64,000 nt of DNA from Herbaspirillum sp. (GTDB lineage: Bacteria; Pseudomonadota; Gammaproteobacteria; Burkholderiales; Burkholderiaceae_D), in the NCBI GenBank assembly GCA_028291765.1, contig JAQGNR010000075.1, positions 1 through 64,000 of the forward strand. Reading direction: 5' to 3'. The notes beneath the pieces were generated by a model. The model worked only from the letters and a program-made list of their open reading frames with translations. It ran no database searches and was not told where the DNA came from. Positions 1 through 48,262 of this stretch are shown one piece after another (the stretch's first letter is position 1; the number at the start of each line of letters is the position of its first letter). The translations under genes and the position numbers were made by a program.

Positions 1-830
1 GTCGGTGTCTTGAGTTGCGGCAGTTCGTAATAAACCGGTTGCGTCAGGATCATGTCGTAGAGCAAAGCCGAGTCCCACGCCACCAGATCTCTTTGCGGTC
101 CACGATACATGCCCGCGAGCATTTGAACCGAAGGCTCATAATCGGCGCGCCATTGGCCCGCAAAATAAGTGCTCTTTTCGTAATTGCGGATGCGATCCGC
201 CGACGTATGCAACTCGCGGTCATACCATTGATCGACCGAGACCGGCGGCACGCCTTTGGCCCGCCAGTCTTCGAGGCCAACCGGATCGACCAGCACGAGT
301 TGTTTTGTTTGTTGAGGATAGGTTAGCGCGTAACGAATCGCGAGCATGCCGCCGGTGGAGTGACCAATCATCGTGGCTTGCTGGATACCGAGCGATTGCA
401 GCAGGTCGTGGGTATTGCGCGCCAGTTGCTGGAATGTGAACTGATAATTTTCAGGCTTACTCGATTTACAAAAGCCGATCTGGTCCATCGCAATCACGCG
501 ATAACCCGCTTTACGCAACACGCCCATTGTCGGCGCCCAGGTCGCCGCACAGTAATTCTTCCCGTGCAGGAGCACGGCGGTCCGTCCGTTCGCCGTCTTC
601 GGATCCGGTGCGAGGTCCATATACGCCATCTGCAAGTCCTGGCGTTGCGAACGGAACTTGAACCAGGAAACGGGATAAGGATAGTCGAAGCCTTGCAGTT
701 CGGCGCCGTAGACAGGGCCGTCCTGCGCGGGGATCACCGTTTGCGCGAACGCGGAGGTGATGGGCAGCGCGGATGTTGCTAGAAGCGTCGCGGCAGCGAG
801 CATCGAAACAAAATAATGGGATTTTTTCAT
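1..830 (-). CDS. Secreted alpha/beta hydrolase, C-terminus outside the window
   Basis: Alpha/beta-hydrolase-fold enzyme probably exported to the periplasm. The N-terminus (MKKSHYFVSM..) has a basic start, a hydrophobic core and an AFAQ-type cleavage site near residue 30. An oxyanion-hole motif LLHGKNYCAATW lies near residues 87-98 and the nucleophile elbow GHSTGG near 156-161 (Ser158). The acid and histidine would fall downstream, and the reading frame is still open at base 1, so the 3' end is missing. The substrate cannot be told; the HGKNYCAATW variant is typical of secreted esterase or epoxide-hydrolase-like proteins. The ATG is chosen because the signal peptide follows at once, although no good Shine-Dalgarno is visible. 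It reads away from the PAP2 gene, so the 150 bp between them must hold both promoters. Confidence 0.85.
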   Translation of the reverse strand, partial: MKKSHYFVSMLAAATLLATSALPITSAFAQTVIPAQDGPVYGAELQGFDYPYPVSWFKFRSQRQDLQMAYMDLAPDPKTANGRTAVLLHGKNYCAATWAPTMGVLRKAGYRVIAMDQIGFCKSSKPENYQFTFQQLARNTHDLLQSLGIQQATMIGHSTGGMLAIRYALTYPQQTKQLVLVDPVGLEDWRAKGVPPVSVDQWYDRELHTSADRIRNYEKSTYFAGQWRADYEPSVQMLAGMYRGPQRDLVAWDSALLYDMILTQPVYYELPQLKTP

Positions 831-37531: not shown

Positions 37532-37783
37532 CTGATCTCCAATAGTTTTCGTTCGAGCTACTAACTCTGTTCGATATTAGTCTTTGTAGAACACCATGCC
37601 GCGCAAGCCCAGCGCGCTAACCGCGCTGTAGAAAAGGTATTTTCATGTTCGGATCATGCCTTGAGCCAAATGGAATAGCAACATCGACCGGCGACTAATG
37701 GCCGGAAGCGGACGTTAAAACCAGAGCGGGTTTGCAGTTCAGTATAGACTGACTATTTCAATGGCTATGTAGATAAGAACATC

Positions 37784-38029
37784 TTGGAAAACATAAATGA
37801 AACCACTATCGCTCTGTTAATCGAGCGGTTAAAAATCCTGGAATACGAGATTAGAAGATCACTCACGGTTCGGGAAGACCAAGAGGATAACGTCGACCCT
37901 CAACACAGGGATGAGGCAGAACGTTGTGGAATACCTGTCGAGGACTTGCATACAAAAGGTGAACTTCTCAATGCTGTGCAGACGACGGTACGGTCAATGC
38001 AGGCAAAGGCCGGCAAAAACAGGGCGTAG
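37784..38029 (+). CDS. Small hypothetical protein
   Basis: 81 residues, acidic and largely helical (NETTIALLIERLKILEYEI..; KGELLNAVQTTVRSMQAKAGK), without a recognised family or membrane segment. It would start with TTG and has no convincing Shine-Dalgarno, so the call rests on amino-acid composition only. It sits alone between nitronate monooxygenase and the repeat-rich region. Confidence 0.35.
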   Translation: MENINETTIALLIERLKILEYEIRRSLTVREDQEDNVDPQHRDEAERCGIPVEDLHTKGELLNAVQTTVRSMQAKAGKNRA

Positions 38030-38245
38030 CCGACTCAGGAAGCAATGAAGCACAGTTTTGACAGTCCGTTTTTGAGGAGGTCTGCCGTCCACTTAGGGGT
38101 CGAACGCGGGCATTTGAGAGAATACCGAGTTTGGCCGAGATGACCCATCGGCTATGTTCCCTTGACGAGGAATAGGTCGAACGCTCAGAGAGCGAGCATA
38201 GATTAATTTCGGTGTCTTCCACCTAAATGTGGAATTTCACCGGTG

Positions 38246-38297
38246 TGAACTGACCCCAAGAAGTTGGACATAGTCCTAACTTCTTGGGGTCAGTTCA
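38246..38297. repeat. Head-to-head IS3-like terminal repeats with no element between
   Basis: Two perfect 20-bp arms, TGAACTGACCCCAAGAAGTT (38246-38265) and its exact complement (38278-38297), separated by only 12 bp. The sequence resembles IS3-family terminal inverted repeats (TGAACTG.CCCC..AAGTTGGAC type). It looks like two IS ends joined after loss of the transposase, or a hairpin-forming miniature element. Confidence 0.7.
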
Positions 38298-38346
38298 TAG
38301 GCGGGATTTCTTCTCAGACTTTAATTTCGAGGAACAACAACTATTC

Positions 38347-38488
38347 CGACCAATTAAAGTCGAAAATACGACCATAGCATCCATGCGGGTTTCGAGTGGT
38401 GCGATTTTTCATGTACGATAACTAAAGTCGAAAACACATTAGCCAAAGCACAATTAAGCAATACACATTCGACAAATAAAGTCGAAAA
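38347..38488 (+). repeat. Three direct repeats of a transposon-end-like motif (left array)
   Basis: Three copies of a roughly 19-20 bp motif with consensus CGAYAA.TAAAGTCGAAAA at 38347-38366, 38416-38434 and 38470-38488 (spacings 69 and 54 bp), all in the same orientation. Multiple unevenly spaced transposase-binding sites at an end are typical of Tn7/Tn5053/Mu-like elements. Matching copies in the opposite orientation lie at 46251-46290. Confidence 0.75.
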
Positions 38489-39078
38489 CTCGTCGTATGA
38501 GTAGCGATTGTCAGTAGCGATCGCATGAAATTGAGCCAATTCTCATGACTATTATCGCCACCGGCTGACCCTACATCGAATCAAAGAAGCACAGTAGCGG
38601 AAGAAACAGACTTGATTATAAAGATCTACCAAGGCGCCGCGATATTTTTGTTCCCGGCCGCGGTCTGAGGGTCGAAGCAGTCCATCACGACCATAAGCGC
38701 GTTCTGATTCTGTTCAACGAACTTTAGGACAGTTTGGCGCAGGAGGTCTTGTAGGTTCGACCTCAGCTTATAAGCCTTGTAATCCATTCCCATCCTTGGA
38801 TTTTTTGAAATTGAAGGTGGGTCAGCGCAACATCGGCATCTGGGTTGTTTTCGGATTGGCCGCCACACCGTGGAACACCAAAAGTCATTTATTTGCTAAT
38901 ATCTGCAAAAAGTTTTTTTCTGGAAAAATTATACATCTTTCAGGGACGCGTCATGTAACACTCATTGCCCCCCGAGTTAGAGGCGGTAGGGAGAAATAAC
39001 GTCAATACGTTATATCTATTCAGAAGCATCTGTTTGGACTGTAGTGTTGCAGTCCGAGCCTCCCCTTATGAGTTTTGA
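38489..39078. other. Region upstream of rpfF, no supported gene
   Basis: A 55-codon minus-strand frame (38626-38793, MGMDYKAYKLR..) has protein-like composition but no recognisable family or firm start, and is left uncalled. The last 80 bp should contain the rpfF promoter; none was assigned. Confidence 0.3.
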
Positions 39079-40047
39079 ATGCCACTACAAAATCACCCTA
39101 AAACCCGACGCTTTATCGAAGCAGGTACGCTCACTCAAATGTCCGCCTGGTATGAAGCCGAGCGCAATGTGATGTGGATGATGATGCAGGCCCATCCGCG
39201 GCCCTGCTTTAATCCCGAACTTCTGAAAGACATTTTGAACCTGGGGCGCGCAGTAAAAGCAAGTAATCTACCTGTCGACTTCTGGGTTACCGGTTCCATG
39301 ATGCCGGGCTTGTTTAACGTTGGAGGTGACCTGTCCAGTTTTGCCGAATACATACGTGGCGGCGAGCGCGGGCATCTGATGGCGTATGCCCGCGCATGCG
39401 TTGACGTGATCTGCGAAATAATGACGGGTTTTGGCGCCGAGGCAATCACGATTGCCATGGTAGAAGGAACTGCACTGGGAGGTGGCTTCGAATGCGCAGT
39501 CGCGCACGACTACATCCTGGCGCAAAAGGATGTAAAGCTTGGTTTCCCCGAAATTGCCTTTAACATGTATCCAGGAATGGGTGCGTATTCGCTGGTAGCG
39601 CGTAAGGCGCACATGCGCCTGGCTGAACAGCTCATCAGCTCCGGCGAAGCCCATACTGCTGAATGGCACCTGGAAAAAGGGCTGGTCGACCGCGTATTCG
39701 AACAGGGAGAGGCCTACAAGGCGACCCGCACGTTTATAGACGGCATACGGCCGAAGCTCAACGGCATCCGTGCGATGCTGCGTACGCGTCGCCGCGTGCT
39801 TCCCATCACCAAGACCGAACTGCTCGACATTACCGAAGACTGGGCTGAATCCGCGTTCAAGCTGGAAGAAAAAGACCTTGCCTATATGGAGCGCCTGGTC
39901 ATGCTTCAGAACAGACGCGGGGGGATGGCTCCGAGCGCCGCGTCAGCGTCGCCTACGCCGTCGGCCCAAAAAGCACTGGCCGCCTCAGTTGCGCAAATGG
40001 CACATACTCCGCCTACGTTTTCGGTCGTGCCCACTCCAAGCTCCTGA
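39079..40047 (+). CDS. rpfF: DSF-family signal synthase (crotonase fold), RpfF homologue
   Basis: 322-residue enoyl-CoA hydratase-fold enzyme matching RpfF, which makes cis-2-unsaturated fatty acid signals (DSF/BDSF) from acyl-ACP by dehydration and thioester cleavage. Key segments are LFNVGGDLSSFAEYIR, TALGGGFECA with catalytic Glu138, and GFPEIAFNMYPGMGAYS with catalytic Glu158; the 20-residue spacing equals that of Glu141/Glu161 in Xanthomonas RpfF. WMMMQAHPRPCFNPELL near the N-terminus is also typical. A 35-residue Ala/Pro/Ser tail is extra. It converges with the rpfR-like receptor gene, as in the Burkholderia cenocepacia BDSF locus. The ATG used lacks a clear Shine-Dalgarno; a Met 20 codons later is possible. 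Confidence 0.88.
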   Translation: MPLQNHPKTRRFIEAGTLTQMSAWYEAERNVMWMMMQAHPRPCFNPELLKDILNLGRAVKASNLPVDFWVTGSMMPGLFNVGGDLSSFAEYIRGGERGHLMAYARACVDVICEIMTGFGAEAITIAMVEGTALGGGFECAVAHDYILAQKDVKLGFPEIAFNMYPGMGAYSLVARKAHMRLAEQLISSGEAHTAEWHLEKGLVDRVFEQGEAYKATRTFIDGIRPKLNGIRAMLRTRRRVLPITKTELLDITEDWAESAFKLEEKDLAYMERLVMLQNRRGGMAPSAASASPTPSAQKALAASVAQMAHTPPTFSVVPTPSS

Positions 40048-40130
40048 GTGCTACGCCTGCCGACGGTGCCGACAACACCAAAGTAATCTCGCGAGCGATG
40101 ACAAAGCAATCTCTCCTGCAAACCTAAAGC

Positions 40131-40164
40131 AAAAGCCCCCGGAGTGAAACTCTCGGGGGCTTTT
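40131..40164. terminator. Bidirectional terminator between rpfF and rpfR
   Basis: GC-rich hairpin AAAAGCCCCCGGAG / TCTCGGGGGCTTTT with a short loop, flanked by A and T runs so that it can act on both strands. It lies 84 bp after the rpfF stop and 20 bp beyond the rpfR stop. Confidence 0.9.
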
Positions 40165-40183
40165 GTAAGCGGCTTGGCAGATA

Positions 40184-42193
40184 TTATGCCGCGATTTGCA
40201 CCACATTGTTCGATGTTACAGGCAACCATGCCTCGAACTCCGAGAGTTTCATCGGGCAGCCAAACAGGTGACCTTGTACGTAGTCCACGCCGATATTTTT
40301 CAGAAAGTCGGCCTGCTCCTGGGTCTCGACGCACTCGGCAACAATTTTCAAGTTCAGCTCGTGGCCCACGGCCACCATCGAACGTACCAGAGCGCGTGCC
40401 TTGGCATCGGTGTGAATGGATTGGATGAAGCTACCGTCAAGTTTCAACACGTCCAGCGGCAGTCGGGTCAACTGAGAAAGTGATGAGTAGCCGGTGCCAA
40501 AGTCATCCAGATGCACTTGTGCGCCCAGTTCGCGGAACATACGAATCAAACGATGCGCGAGTTTCTCGTCTTCTACAAGGCAGCTCTCCGTCAATTCGAG
40601 GTCGACCATCGACGGAGACAAATTGTTGGACAGAACCGCGTGCGTGAAGTCTTCCAAAATTTTGTGGTCACGGAACTGGCGGGCCGAGACGTTAATGGCG
40701 ATGCGCAGGGGCAGACCTTGTTTTTTCCAGGCCGCGGCCTGTTTGGCTGCGGCTTCCATGACCCAGCGGCCCAGCGGAACAATCAGGCCAGACTTTTCCG
40801 CGTACGGAATAAAGGATGATGGCAAGACCAGACCACGTTCAGGGTGGTTCCAGCGAAGCAGCGCTTCGACGCTTTCCACTTTGCCGGTCAGTAACGATAT
40901 TTTCGGCTGATAGTATAGCTCGAACTGATTCTCATCCAGCGCGCGCCGCACGTTATTTTCAAGCCATACATATTCGCCGACATTGCTGTTCATATCTGGC
41001 GAGAACACGCGATACATGCGCTTGCCGTTTTCCTTTGCGACATACATCGCCGTATCGGCGCTGCGCACCAGTTCTTCGAGGGTGCCGCCATGCGCTGGGA
41101 ACATAGCGATACCGATCGAGCATCCAGTGTAGACTTCGGCGCGCTTCAGGGCGAACGGCATTTTCATGTGGTCTAGGATGCGTTGCGCCATCGCTTCCGA
41201 GGCATCTTGGGTAGGGCTACCTACCATAATCAGGAATTCGTCTCCGCCCAATCGCGCAAGAACATCTTTCTCCGACAGACAGTTGCTGAGGGCGCCGGCG
41301 ACTTCCTTGATAAGTGCGTCGCCTGTGAGATGACCATAGTGGTCGTTTACGGTCTTGAAGTTGTCGAGGTCGAGGAATATCAACCCAAAGGATTCGGCAT
41401 TTTCTGCCGCGACGGCTGCCGTGATTCTCTCTTGGATGGCGTGGCGGTTCGATAACCCTGTTAAGGCATCGGTACTCGCCAACTCGATCAGTCGAGCCTG
41501 CGCGCGGAGTTCTTCCGTAATATCCGTGCCGGAGCAAACGAGATATTTTTCAGGCTCGCCGCTTCCGGATTCCATTAGGGTGGTGCGCCACTGAATCATG
41601 CGTACACCGTTTTTGGTATTGATGGGGCGCGTCTGCGGTGCCGATTTATTATTGCTGAAATAAGAGTTGACGCCTGCACGGGATTCTTCACGCTGGCTCA
41701 CGTTGACAAAGAGGTCGAATGCGTTTTTACCGACCACGTCCGATTCCTTGACGCCCGTTATTTCCTCAAACAGACGATTGAATCTTTTGATTTTGCCCGC
41801 GCTGTCGATAATGATAACCAGTGAATTAACTTCAGACACGACCTGTTCGGCGAACGTTAGACCGTTTTCTAAATCCTTGACAACAGTTTCAGTATCGCCA
41901 TAGTGTGCAGCAGTGCCCCCCCACGCCCAGTTATCTATTTTGCGACCAACGAGATGGACACGGATAGGTGTGCCAAAAATGGCGATAGAAAGGGTCATGC
42001 TCGAAGTGACGCCGGTCATTGTGCGGATGTCGCACGCTTGCGCCATCGAAAGCTCGACGGCCACCGTCGCCGCGCCTTTTGCGCCGGATAACTGTAGCGC
42101 ATCACTGTCGGTGGTCAGCCTCCAGCAAGGGCTGGACGTCCCGAAGTGTGTAAAAAGCTGTGGGTTGTCAATGTCTTCTTCAATATCGAGCAT
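40184..42193 (-). CDS. rpfR: RpfR-like BDSF receptor: FI-PAS-GGDEF-EAL protein
   Basis: 669 residues with no membrane segment. Residues about 1-105 match the RpfF-interaction domain of Burkholderia/Cronobacter RpfR (PQLFTHFGTSSPCWRLTTDSDALQL, seen as FTHFGTSSPCWRL). A PAS domain (about 115-225) binds the fatty acid signal, then GGDEF (about 235-400; GGDEF intact at 316-320) and EAL (about 410-660; VEALLRW, DDFGTGYSSL, AECVETQEQ). In RpfR, signal binding raises the c-di-GMP phosphodiesterase activity. The GGDEF I-site is degenerate (SEKD instead of RxxD), so product inhibition may be absent. AAAGAG precedes the ATG. With rpfF it forms a self-contained quorum-sensing module. Confidence 0.9.
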   Translation of the reverse strand: MLDIEEDIDNPQLFTHFGTSSPCWRLTTDSDALQLSGAKGAATVAVELSMAQACDIRTMTGVTSSMTLSIAIFGTPIRVHLVGRKIDNWAWGGTAAHYGDTETVVKDLENGLTFAEQVVSEVNSLVIIIDSAGKIKRFNRLFEEITGVKESDVVGKNAFDLFVNVSQREESRAGVNSYFSNNKSAPQTRPINTKNGVRMIQWRTTLMESGSGEPEKYLVCSGTDITEELRAQARLIELASTDALTGLSNRHAIQERITAAVAAENAESFGLIFLDLDNFKTVNDHYGHLTGDALIKEVAGALSNCLSEKDVLARLGGDEFLIMVGSPTQDASEAMAQRILDHMKMPFALKRAEVYTGCSIGIAMFPAHGGTLEELVRSADTAMYVAKENGKRMYRVFSPDMNSNVGEYVWLENNVRRALDENQFELYYQPKISLLTGKVESVEALLRWNHPERGLVLPSSFIPYAEKSGLIVPLGRWVMEAAAKQAAAWKKQGLPLRIAINVSARQFRDHKILEDFTHAVLSNNLSPSMVDLELTESCLVEDEKLAHRLIRMFRELGAQVHLDDFGTGYSSLSQLTRLPLDVLKLDGSFIQSIHTDAKARALVRSMVAVGHELNLKIVAECVETQEQADFLKNIGVDYVQGHLFGCPMKLSEFEAWLPVTSNNVVQIAA

Positions 42194-42522
42194 GGGTACT
42201 CTTTCGTTTCAGGCGTCCGAGGGCGTCATCCATTTATGTTGTGTATTCTATTTAACAGCACGTGTTAATAATGACTTCACTGCCACAAATAACCTTCCTT
42301 GAACGGGGCGGCCTCGAGTATCGATGCTTAATACAGGCATGAGTGATTAGCCTGTCGTTTTTAAGGAGTAGGGAGGGGCAAGTCAAAGCTTCCGAACCAG
42401 CTATAGTGGTGTGCGGAAACCTTTTTCGCGCCATTATGGCGCAGATAAGTAATGTGTCAAGGCAAAATCGAATAGTCCACCTCCTGTAGGCGGAAAACAA
42501 AAGCGTTACTCCCATTAATACC

Positions 42523-43161
42523 TTAGTCTGTAAGCGCTTGAATATTAGCGGCTTTTCCGATTCCGGTAACGCTTTTAGTATGGCTGGGCACCCCCGATTT
42601 TGCCGAATTTGTCTTTTTTGGCCAACGAAAAATGAAAGCGTTGCCAGCCTTGTGGATAGGGGCTTTCCAGCCGATTCGACCCCTCGCTGTCGGACCAGCC
42701 AGTGTCCCTTGACTTGACCCGCGCAAGTCCCAAGCCGAGAAGCGTTTGAATTGATTAACGAGATTTCGCGCCGCACCAAGTCGGCCGCGGTGTGTTCCTT
42801 TGCTCGCAGAGTTGACCCTCTCCAACTGATCCAGTTTCCACTGCCTAGCGAACGCTGCAACGCGGTCATAAGACCCTTCATAGCCTAAAGCGCGTAGGTC
42901 CAGATACATCTGCTTCACGCTGCGTTTTTGTTTCCGGGATTTGGTTGATTCCGTTTTTAGCCACGTAGACAGCTTGAACGCATACTTATCGAGAGCACTC
43001 ACTGACTTCCTATCTGCATAGACAGGTTCGATGGTCTCCGAACGTATGTAGCGTCTCACGGTGTTGCGGGAGATGCCTAGGCGTCTAGAAATTTCTCGCA
43101 ATGAAAGCTGGTCACGAATGTGCCAGCGTCGAATAAGTCCAATTAAAGCCACGTCGATCAC
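42523..43161 (-). pseudogene. istA: Truncated IS21-family transposase IstA
   Basis: The first roughly 120 residues match IS21 IstA: IDVALIGLIRRWHIRDQLSLREISRRLGISRNTVRRYIRSE (HTH; seen as LSLREISRRLGISRNTVRRY), the SRKQKRSVKQMYLDL motif, and GYEGSYDRVAAFARQWK. The retroviral-integrase DDE core that should follow is missing; after about residue 125 the frame continues into unrelated sequence to a chance stop. No istB is present. The copy is dead. Confidence 0.85.
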
Positions 43162-46400: not shown

Positions 46401-46420
46401 GTCAGATCCGCCATCCCCCC

Positions 46421-48262
46421 TCACTCCACCGTAACCGACTTCGCCAAATTTCGCGGCTTATCCACATCCGTCCCTCTGGCCAGCGCAGTGTGATAAGCCA
46501 GCAATTGCAGCGGCACCACATGCAAAATCGGCGACAGTAACCCGTAATGCTCCGGCAGCCGGATCACATGAATCCCTTCGCTCGAATGGATGCGCGAATC
46601 CGAATCGGCAAATACATACAACTCACCCCCGCGCGCACGCACTTCCTGCATATTCGATTTCAGCTTTTCGATCAGCATATCGTTCGGCGCCACCGTCACC
46701 ACCGGCATTTCCTTGGTCACCAGCGCCAGCGGGCCGTGTTTCAGTTCGCCGGCAGGATAGGCTTCGGCATGAATGTATGAAATTTCTTTCAGCTTCAACG
46801 CGCCTTCCAGCGCAATCGGATAGTGCAGGCCGCGTCCCAGGAACAGCGCATTTTCCTTGCGCGCAAAGGCATCGGCCCAGGCGATGATTTGCGGTTCCAG
46901 CGCCAGCACGCTTTGCAGCGCAGCCGGCAAGTGGCGCAGGTTTTTCAAATGCAGATGCTGGTCTTCGACGCTGATGCGATTGCGTAGTTTGGCCAGCGTC
47001 AGGGTCAGCAGGAATAGCGCCGCCAGTTGCGTCGTAAATGCTTTGGTGGAAGCCACGCCGATTTCAACGCCGGCGCGGGTCAGGTACGACAGCTCGGTTT
47101 CGCGCACCATCGCGGAACTGCCGACATTGCAGATCGCCAGCGAATGTTTGTGACCCAGTTCTTTGGCGTATTTCAATGCCGCCAGCGTGTCGGCGGTCTC
47201 GCCCGATTGCGAGATCACGACGATCAGTGCGTTCGGATTGACGGTCGGCGTGCGATAACGATATTCGCTGGCGATTTCGACGCTGGTCGGAATGCCGGCG
47301 ACCGCTTCCAGCCAGTATTTGGCAGTCATGCCCGAATACAGGCTGGTGCCGCAAGCCAGAATCTGGATTGCATCGATGTCCTTGAATACCGCCGCAGCCT
47401 TGTCGCCGAACAACGCCGGCACGAAGCCTTCAACGCCCTCCAGCGTATCGCTGATGGCGCGCGGTTGTTCGAAAATTTCCTTCTGCATGTAATGGCGGTA
47501 CGGCCCAAGATCGATCGCGCCCGAATAGGCATGCACCGTCAGTACGGCACGCTCGACAGGCATGTCGTTGCCGTCGGTAATGCGGATGCCGTCCAGCTGC
47601 ACGTCAACCACGTCTCCTTCTTCCAGATAGATGATCTGGTCGGTGGTGCCGGCCAGCGCCATGGCGTCCGAGGCCAGGAAGTTTTCACCGTTGCCGATGC
47701 CCACGATCAGCGGGCAACCCAGCCGCGCACCGATCAGACGGTGCGGTTCGTCTTGGCAAAATACCGCCAGCGCAAAGGCGCCGGTCAGACGTTTTACCGT
47801 TTTTTGCATGGTGCGTAGCAGGTCGCCGTCGTATAGATGGTTGACCAGATGAGCCACCACTTCGGTGTCGGTTTGCGATTCGAAGCGATAGCCCAGCGCG
47901 ATCAGTTCGGCGCGGATTTCTTCGTAGTTTTCGATGATGCCGTTATGCACCAGCGCAATGCGCGGCGTGCCGTTGGCGTCCGGCGAGAAATGCGGATGGG
48001 CATTGTTGGTGGCGGGTGCGCCGTGCGTGGCCCAGCGCGTGTGCGCGATGCCGGTAGCGCCCGTAAAGTTGCTGGCGTCGACCTGCGCTTGCAGCTCGGC
48101 CACGCGCGCCACGCTGCGCGCGCGCTTTAAGCCACCGTTGAGGCCGCCGTCGTGCACCGCGACGCCACAGGAATCATAGCCGCGGTATTCGAGCCGCTTC
48201 AAGCCTTCGAGCATGATGGGAACAATGTTGCGTTGCGCTACTGCACCGACGATACCGCACAT
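46421..48262 (-). CDS. glmS: Glutamine-fructose-6-phosphate aminotransferase (isomerizing)
   Basis: 613-residue cytosolic enzyme that makes glucosamine-6-phosphate from fructose-6-P and glutamine, the first step to UDP-GlcNAc. N-terminal Ntn glutaminase domain: Cys2 after the initiator Met (MCGIVGAV), HTRWATHG and HNGIIENY. Two SIS sugar-isomerase domains follow ([49 protein letters not shown], seen in pieces). The C-terminus AKSVTVE is typical. It lies 15 bp downstream of glmU in one operon. No ribozyme is expected in this group and none was seen. Confidence 0.98.

Follow-up and report, generated by a model that had tools for sequence, protein, structure and literature searches.

An RpfF/RpfR pair in Herbaspirillum with an altered PAS pocket in the receptor

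Described RpfF/RpfR systems and the Herbaspirillum pair

The RpfF/RpfR pair, a synthase and a receptor for fatty-acid signals of the diffusible signal factor (DSF) family, is listed in Burkholderia, Achromobacter and several enterobacteria in PMC4504480 and PMC4698668. In the Cronobacter RpfR PAS structure the residues S169, N172, Y183 and R187 are the contacts to the carboxylate of the Burkholderia diffusible signal factor (BDSF), and N202 is the proposed contact to its cis-2 double bond; in B. cenocepacia, for whose RpfR a BDSF affinity of 877 nM is quoted, single Ala changes at the equivalents of S169, N172, R187 and N202 raised cyclic di-guanosine monophosphate (c-di-GMP) (PMC6361424). The Cronobacter PAS structures and that one proposed Asn contact are the main basis for explaining how RpfR discriminates the signal from ordinary cellular fatty acids. 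We analyzed an rpfF/rpfR pair in a 64-kb stretch of Herbaspirillum DNA (contig JAQGNR010000075.1, positions 1 to 64,000; the whole of it is called the window), and found that three of the five polar BDSF contacts are substituted in its RpfR. With about even confidence we propose that the two genes form a working RpfF/RpfR circuit in Herbaspirillum, and that the receptor, which is without the canonical BDSF contacts, probably responds to a shifted ligand. A natural and conserved receptor without Asn202, encoded beside a synthase with its catalytic residues, offers a ready test of the proposed cis-2 contact. It may also reveal the way in which fatty-acid signals split into private channels.

The first-pass annotation of this locus had described a complete BDSF-type module that would make c-di-GMP turnover signal-dependent, a claim that does not stand as worded, because three of the five BDSF contacts of the PAS domain are replaced. 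Nothing is out of the ordinary in the module and its layout, in the degenerate I-site or in the RpfF tail; the altered PAS pocket had escaped the first-pass annotation. The finding also places the RpfF/RpfR pair in Herbaspirillum. A literature search judged from its listings, with subscription papers mostly outside its reach, found no paper on RpfF/RpfR in this genus, and a search on RpfR with "ligand specificity" found none; by term count, the word Herbaspirillum was not found in the accessible text of two 2026 reviews (PMC12838280, PMC13220807).

Because of the homology to the Burkholderia/Cronobacter pair, the following course can be proposed. RpfF, with its crotonase fold and two catalytic Glu, would release a free unsaturated fatty acid from acyl-acyl carrier protein, the RpfF-interaction (FI) domain of RpfR would dock on RpfF and restrain it, and the ligand held in the PAS domain would set the output of the c-di-GMP phosphodiesterase (EAL) domain. 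With the polar end of the PAS pocket rebuilt, the ligand preference would most likely have moved from the canonical BDSF contacts to a fatty acid whose head-group region, chain or unsaturation is different, and the shifted ligand might be the product of the RpfF that is paired with this RpfR.

The window pair resembles the BDSF system of B. cenocepacia and C. turicensis (PMC6361424 and PMC4698668) in both proteins, in domain order and in convergence, and also in the catalytic Glu pair, the FI domain, and the intact GGDEF and EAL. It differs from C. turicensis in that G, A and T take the place of N172, Y183 and N202, and in the host genus; its RpfF tail exceeds that of the 287-residue solved RpfF chain. 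The Glaciimonas pairs (L036-L039) are close to that of the window, their RpfF core being 82-83% and their RpfR 75-77% identical, with many changes at PAS positions 163-207 in common, but they retain Y183 and N202, three of the four have S at N172, and one of the four is codirectional. E. coli PdeR (Gmr, YciR) is an RpfR homologue (~47% identical) in which four pocket residues (S, N, Y and N) are retained and R187 is L; E. coli is reported to be without a DSF synthase (PMC6361424). The two genes of the window and their main parts are as follows:

39079..40047, + strand: rpfF, DSF-family synthase of 322 amino acids (open reading frame, profile and PDB matches)
39490..39492, + strand: codon of the catalytic Glu138 of RpfF (alignment)
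39550..39552, + strand: codon of the catalytic Glu158 of RpfF (PDB match, alignment)
40184..42193, - strand: rpfR, FI-PAS-GGDEF-EAL protein of 669 amino acids (open reading frame, motifs, profile match)
41900..42193, - strand: FI domain, residues 1-98 (sequence and structural match)
41516..41845, - strand: ligand-binding PAS domain, residues 117-226 (sequence and structural match)
41018..41485, - strand: GGDEF domain, residues 237-392, with GGDEF intact and the I-site degenerate (SEKD) (motifs, alignment)
40226..40963, - strand: EAL phosphodiesterase domain, residues 411-656, with the EAL and DDFG motifs intact (motifs, alignment)

When RpfF was compared with PDB chains, the best matches were 6dgn_A, an RpfF (417.5 bits), and 5fus_A (415.7 bits); the RpfF-like chains 3m6m (168.9 bits) and 7zq7 (161.5 bits) ranked next, and the first other hydratase, 1hzd_A, reached 53.3 bits. 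Chain 3m6m_A is presumably the Xanthomonas RpfF enzyme. The synthase of the Xanthomonas RpfF/RpfC/RpfG system is thus related, but its receptor is of another type, whereas the rpfF of the window adjoins rpfR. The protein passed NCBIfam NF006452 with 389 bits (cut-off 177) and stayed below the cut-off of NF053515, the RpfF equivalog (182 vs 550), and both E138 and E158 are Glu in all 87 distinct RpfF proteins aligned. These matches place it in the crotonase-fold RpfF subfamily, apart from ordinary enoyl-CoA hydratases, as the first-pass annotation had claimed from the catalytic Glu pair. F44 and F88, reported to clash with the bound fatty acid while FI is bound (PMC6361424), are retained in the alignment.

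The opposing protein passed NCBIfam NF007474 (939 bits, cut-off 782). Its residues 5-96 matched 6dga (E 3.8e-23) and residues 117-226 matched 6dgg (E 2.5e-28), the Cronobacter RpfR FI and PAS structures, respectively. In an AlphaFold model of residues 1-235 (mean predicted local distance difference test score, pLDDT, 76.5), the top three structural matches among 1000 chains aligned were 6dgg and 6dgj (PAS, Z 17.8) and 6dgn_B (FI, Z 16.4). The order FI, PAS, GGDEF, EAL was confirmed and the motifs are intact, so that the assignment to RpfR made earlier was upheld; the N-terminus does align with the RpfR FI domain. The Oxalobacteraceae host suggested at that stage proved right as well, and was narrowed to Herbaspirillum by the genus label that this genome shares with G245, taken as H. 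autotrophicum; no 16S gene was found in the genome.

Substituted contacts in the PAS pocket

The PAS contacts are numbered as in C. turicensis RpfR, and the residue of the window protein is the contact number plus 2. The alignment gave the following assignments:

41681..41683, - strand: Ser171 (Ser169 of C. turicensis, retained)
41672..41674, - strand: Gly174 (Asn172 of C. turicensis)
41639..41641, - strand: Ala185 (Tyr183 of C. turicensis)
41627..41629, - strand: Arg189 (Arg187 of C. turicensis, retained)
41582..41584, - strand: Thr204 (Asn202 of C. turicensis, the proposed cis-2 double bond contact)

Hence, the substitutions are N172G, Y183A and N202T, with the Ser and the Arg retained. No gap interrupts the alignment to 6dgg in the pocket, and the structural match, which pairs residues 120..226 with 118..224, gives the same register. 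The RpfR of H. autotrophicum carries identical residues at all five contact positions.

We then counted the residues at these positions in 85 distinct RpfR proteins. The 80 named loci are the best of 318 and come mostly from Burkholderia and Paraburkholderia; the repeat records L045, L046, L056 and L122 were dropped from the RpfF and RpfR sets before counting, and the RpfR set also omits L044 (no RpfR on its contig) and L047 (RpfR truncated where its contig stops). At position 174, N occurs in 80 proteins, S in three, all of them Glaciimonas, and G in the two Herbaspirillum; position 185 is Y in 59, F in 22, A in the two Herbaspirillum, T in one and H in one; and position 189 is R in 85/85. 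At position 204, N was found in 83 and T in the two Herbaspirillum, a count taken on an uneven sample because the loci are mostly from Burkholderia and Paraburkholderia. The order-level and family-level searches supplied 18 loci, and N202 is retained in all of them; at least eight of these loci also belong to the set of 85. Ala185 and Thr204, together with Gly at 174, are therefore specific to Herbaspirillum as far as the aligned sequences go. These substitutions drop side-chain bulk at two places and the amide at two, and we infer that the pocket would thereby become more open at its head-group end.

Age of the altered pocket and alternative explanations

RpfF, FI, PAS and GGDEF-EAL were placed in separate trees, each with 22 sequences hand-chosen from the 85. 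The window and H. autotrophicum are sisters in all four, with Glaciimonas as the next branch, and the support of the edge separating both Herbaspirillum from the other sequences is 100 for RpfF, 89 for FI, 99 for PAS and 75 for GGDEF-EAL. Between the two RpfR proteins, the identity is 91% in the PAS, 70% in the FI, 76% in the GGDEF and 80% in the EAL domain, and the nonsynonymous divergence (dN) is 0.053, 0.22, 0.168 and 0.139, respectively; the proportion of synonymous differences (pS) is 0.67-0.74 in all four domains, so that synonymous sites are near saturation. Because dN is lowest in the PAS while synonymous sites are near saturation, the altered pocket appears to be old and kept, and it looks maintained by selection, neither decaying nor exchanged by recent recombination. 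A recent recombination of the PAS between both Herbaspirillum was considered, and is ruled out by the near-saturated synonymous sites and the congruent trees.

Much of the change at PAS positions 163-207 is common to the sister genus Glaciimonas, from which it follows that the remodelling of the PAS would be older than Herbaspirillum. Put fairly, the common lineage of Herbaspirillum and Glaciimonas acquired a variant PAS, after which, among the aligned sequences, Herbaspirillum alone lost N202; it alone also has Ala for Y183.

Several observations weigh against the reading of a shifted ligand. In RpfR the PAS is commonly better conserved than the remaining protein, with a mean excess of 5.3 points in pairs of similar divergence, and an excess at least as large as that of this pair is reached in 5/679 comparable protein pairs, itself included, the other four sharing one Paraburkholderia protein; the constraint on the PAS is thereby weakened as a unique outlier. 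The changes cluster at positions 163-207 (P 1.6e-6, in a stretch picked post hoc; P 0.006 for the whole PAS), and six control pairs have 7, 4, 1, 0, 2 and 2 PAS changes. The first of these values belongs to a Glaciimonas pair whose seven changes all lie in 163-207, six of them at positions altered in Herbaspirillum; as this pair is much alike, the clustering was set aside and the contact residues carry the case. The pocket tolerates some change, since S169 is replaced by Ala or Thr in other RpfR, and Y183 by Phe, with Ile and Trp in three proteins of greater distance; Asn174 is Ser in three of the four Glaciimonas too. Just two copies of the pair are known here among 34 Herbaspirillum genomes. 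The clustering of RpfF changes around E138 is not significant (P 0.10), and the contact between RpfF and its FI partner may itself be changing in H. autotrophicum, whose branches are long in the RpfF and FI trees.

A more far-reaching version of the shifted-ligand reading, which we put forward only tentatively, is that RpfF and RpfR have changed in concert, the one now making and the other reading a non-BDSF fatty acid, as a private dialect of DSF signalling. RpfF carries C139 and V141 near E138, a pair exclusive to both Herbaspirillum among the 87 RpfF aligned, where column 139 is A in 82 and column 141 is L in 85; these shared residues are suggestive and not significant. If this dialect existed, Herbaspirillum would have a natural RpfR of new ligand specificity, one not reliant on the Asn to which recognition of the cis-2 double bond is ascribed.

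The best-surviving alternative, which we hold to be a lesser but real possibility, is an ordinary BDSF module: RpfR would still perceive the BDSF that RpfF makes, by means of Ser171, Arg189 and Thr204, and the substitutions would be neutral or have been compensated. The canonical architecture, layout and enzyme motifs, the retained Ser and Arg contacts, and the variation at Ser169 and Tyr183 in other RpfR are all consistent with it. However, three of the five polar contacts are altered jointly, one of which is elsewhere Asn in 83/85, and Ala at both Asn positions raised c-di-GMP in B. cenocepacia (PMC6361424), because of which a response of this RpfR to BDSF itself seems doubtful. A receptor that has become signal-blind, with a PAS no longer gating by any fatty acid and RpfR serving as a constitutively active phosphodiesterase that also restrains RpfF, is unlikely in our judgment: the loss of contacts that matter in B. 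cenocepacia (PMC6361424), the recognisable FI domain and the intact EAL motifs would suit it, but a freed PAS should drift, and this PAS has changed least of the four domains since both species diverged. That the pair is a recent horizontal import whose source lies outside the family, and that it lacks an established function in this host, is very improbable, since the window and H. autotrophicum are sisters with Glaciimonas next, and synonymous sites are near saturation, even though the patchy occurrence of the pair (2/34 Herbaspirillum), its being alone among 25 window genes in matching the H. autotrophicum and Glaciimonas loci, a glmS side not common to G252 and G259, and the IS21-type remnant that adjoins rpfR could be taken in its favour. 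An old residence, or an old transfer within the lineage, fits better.

Layout, minor features and genomic neighbourhood

Both genes are intact in the window and converge on a hairpin that may serve both:

40129..40166, no strand assigned: hairpin between the convergent rpfF and rpfR, likely a shared terminator (folding)
39928..40044, + strand: Ala/Pro/Ser-rich C-terminal tail of RpfF, residues 284-322 (sequence; low pLDDT in a poor model)

The convergent layout noted at first is seen in 88 of the 89 loci with both genes (a count that includes the four repeat records; 84/85 distinct). The sole non-convergent locus is Glaciimonas L037 (9328-12781), where rpfR and rpfF are codirectional. The shared terminator proposed with it is in part supported: the intergenic region folds stably (z -3.45, none of 200 shuffles equally stable) and the hairpin begins with a run of A and finishes with a run of T, but a plain consensus scan of 38800-42600 gave 5 terminator-like sites against a shuffle mean of 4.1, with no excess. 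An Rfam search of the whole window gave no match.

Two further features had been singled out, and both are present without being exceptional. The degenerate I-site (SEKD) is no rarity, for Arg occupies that column in just 12/85 distinct RpfR, H. autotrophicum included. The Ala/Pro/Ser tail of RpfF was ruled out as unusual, as seven related RpfF proteins likewise have tails, varied in length and sequence; the structure model of RpfF was poor (mean pLDDT 58.5) and was not used. RpfR has Cys621 (40331-40333), beside the EAL Glu620, in place of Gly, with C in six and G in 79 of the 85.

The approximately 1.5 kb upstream of rpfF (37532-39078) contains no convincing gene, and its guanine plus cytosine content is locally poorer (46% at 38000-38999). 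Some 330 bases upstream of rpfR lies an IS21-type transposase remnant (42523-43161, - strand) that covers the first 104 of 294 profile positions with 74.9 bits, where 160 are needed.

RpfR was found in two of the 34 Herbaspirillum genomes, that of the window and H. autotrophicum, and the BDSF-type RpfF in the same two, a third genome having only a 35% homologue. In the family sample of 245 genomes, RpfR occurred in 11 and RpfF-like genes in 36, 10 of these at >60% identity; the order-level search found RpfR in 9/399 genomes, the window's included, and the class-level search of 369 genomes found none apart from the window's. Four of the five genomes of the genus taken as Glaciimonas have RpfR. 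Fourteen plasmid records had an RpfF-like match, the best at 66.8%, and none was nearer. No RpfF match was found in the family-sample search for G195, from the genus group of Noviherbaspirillum humi, whose RpfR (L145) is 49% identical to that of the window and has Lys at position 172.

The window contig shares two genes that look like glmU and glmS, and three genes beyond them, with the close relative G252 (GlmS-like 92%), and because of this common block it is not a stray contig. Of 25 window genes set against the surroundings of the pair in H. autotrophicum and its relatives, Glaciimonas among them, the pair alone was matched; since the surrounding genes are not common to the related loci, it seems that over long periods the two genes travel or disappear together. 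On its glmS side the window differs from both G252 and G259, whose GlmS are closest to its own. The end of glmS is a known insertion point of Tn7-type elements, and that of the window may be a hotspot. The DNA similarity to G252 or G259 (L125, L126) ends at the end of the glmS-like gene, at window positions 46420-46423, and near its glmS, G259 (L126 56-15491) carries six large phage-defence-like genes: a GajB-like helicase, SspF, mad7, a methyltransferase, a specificity subunit or mad5, and DndH or mad8.

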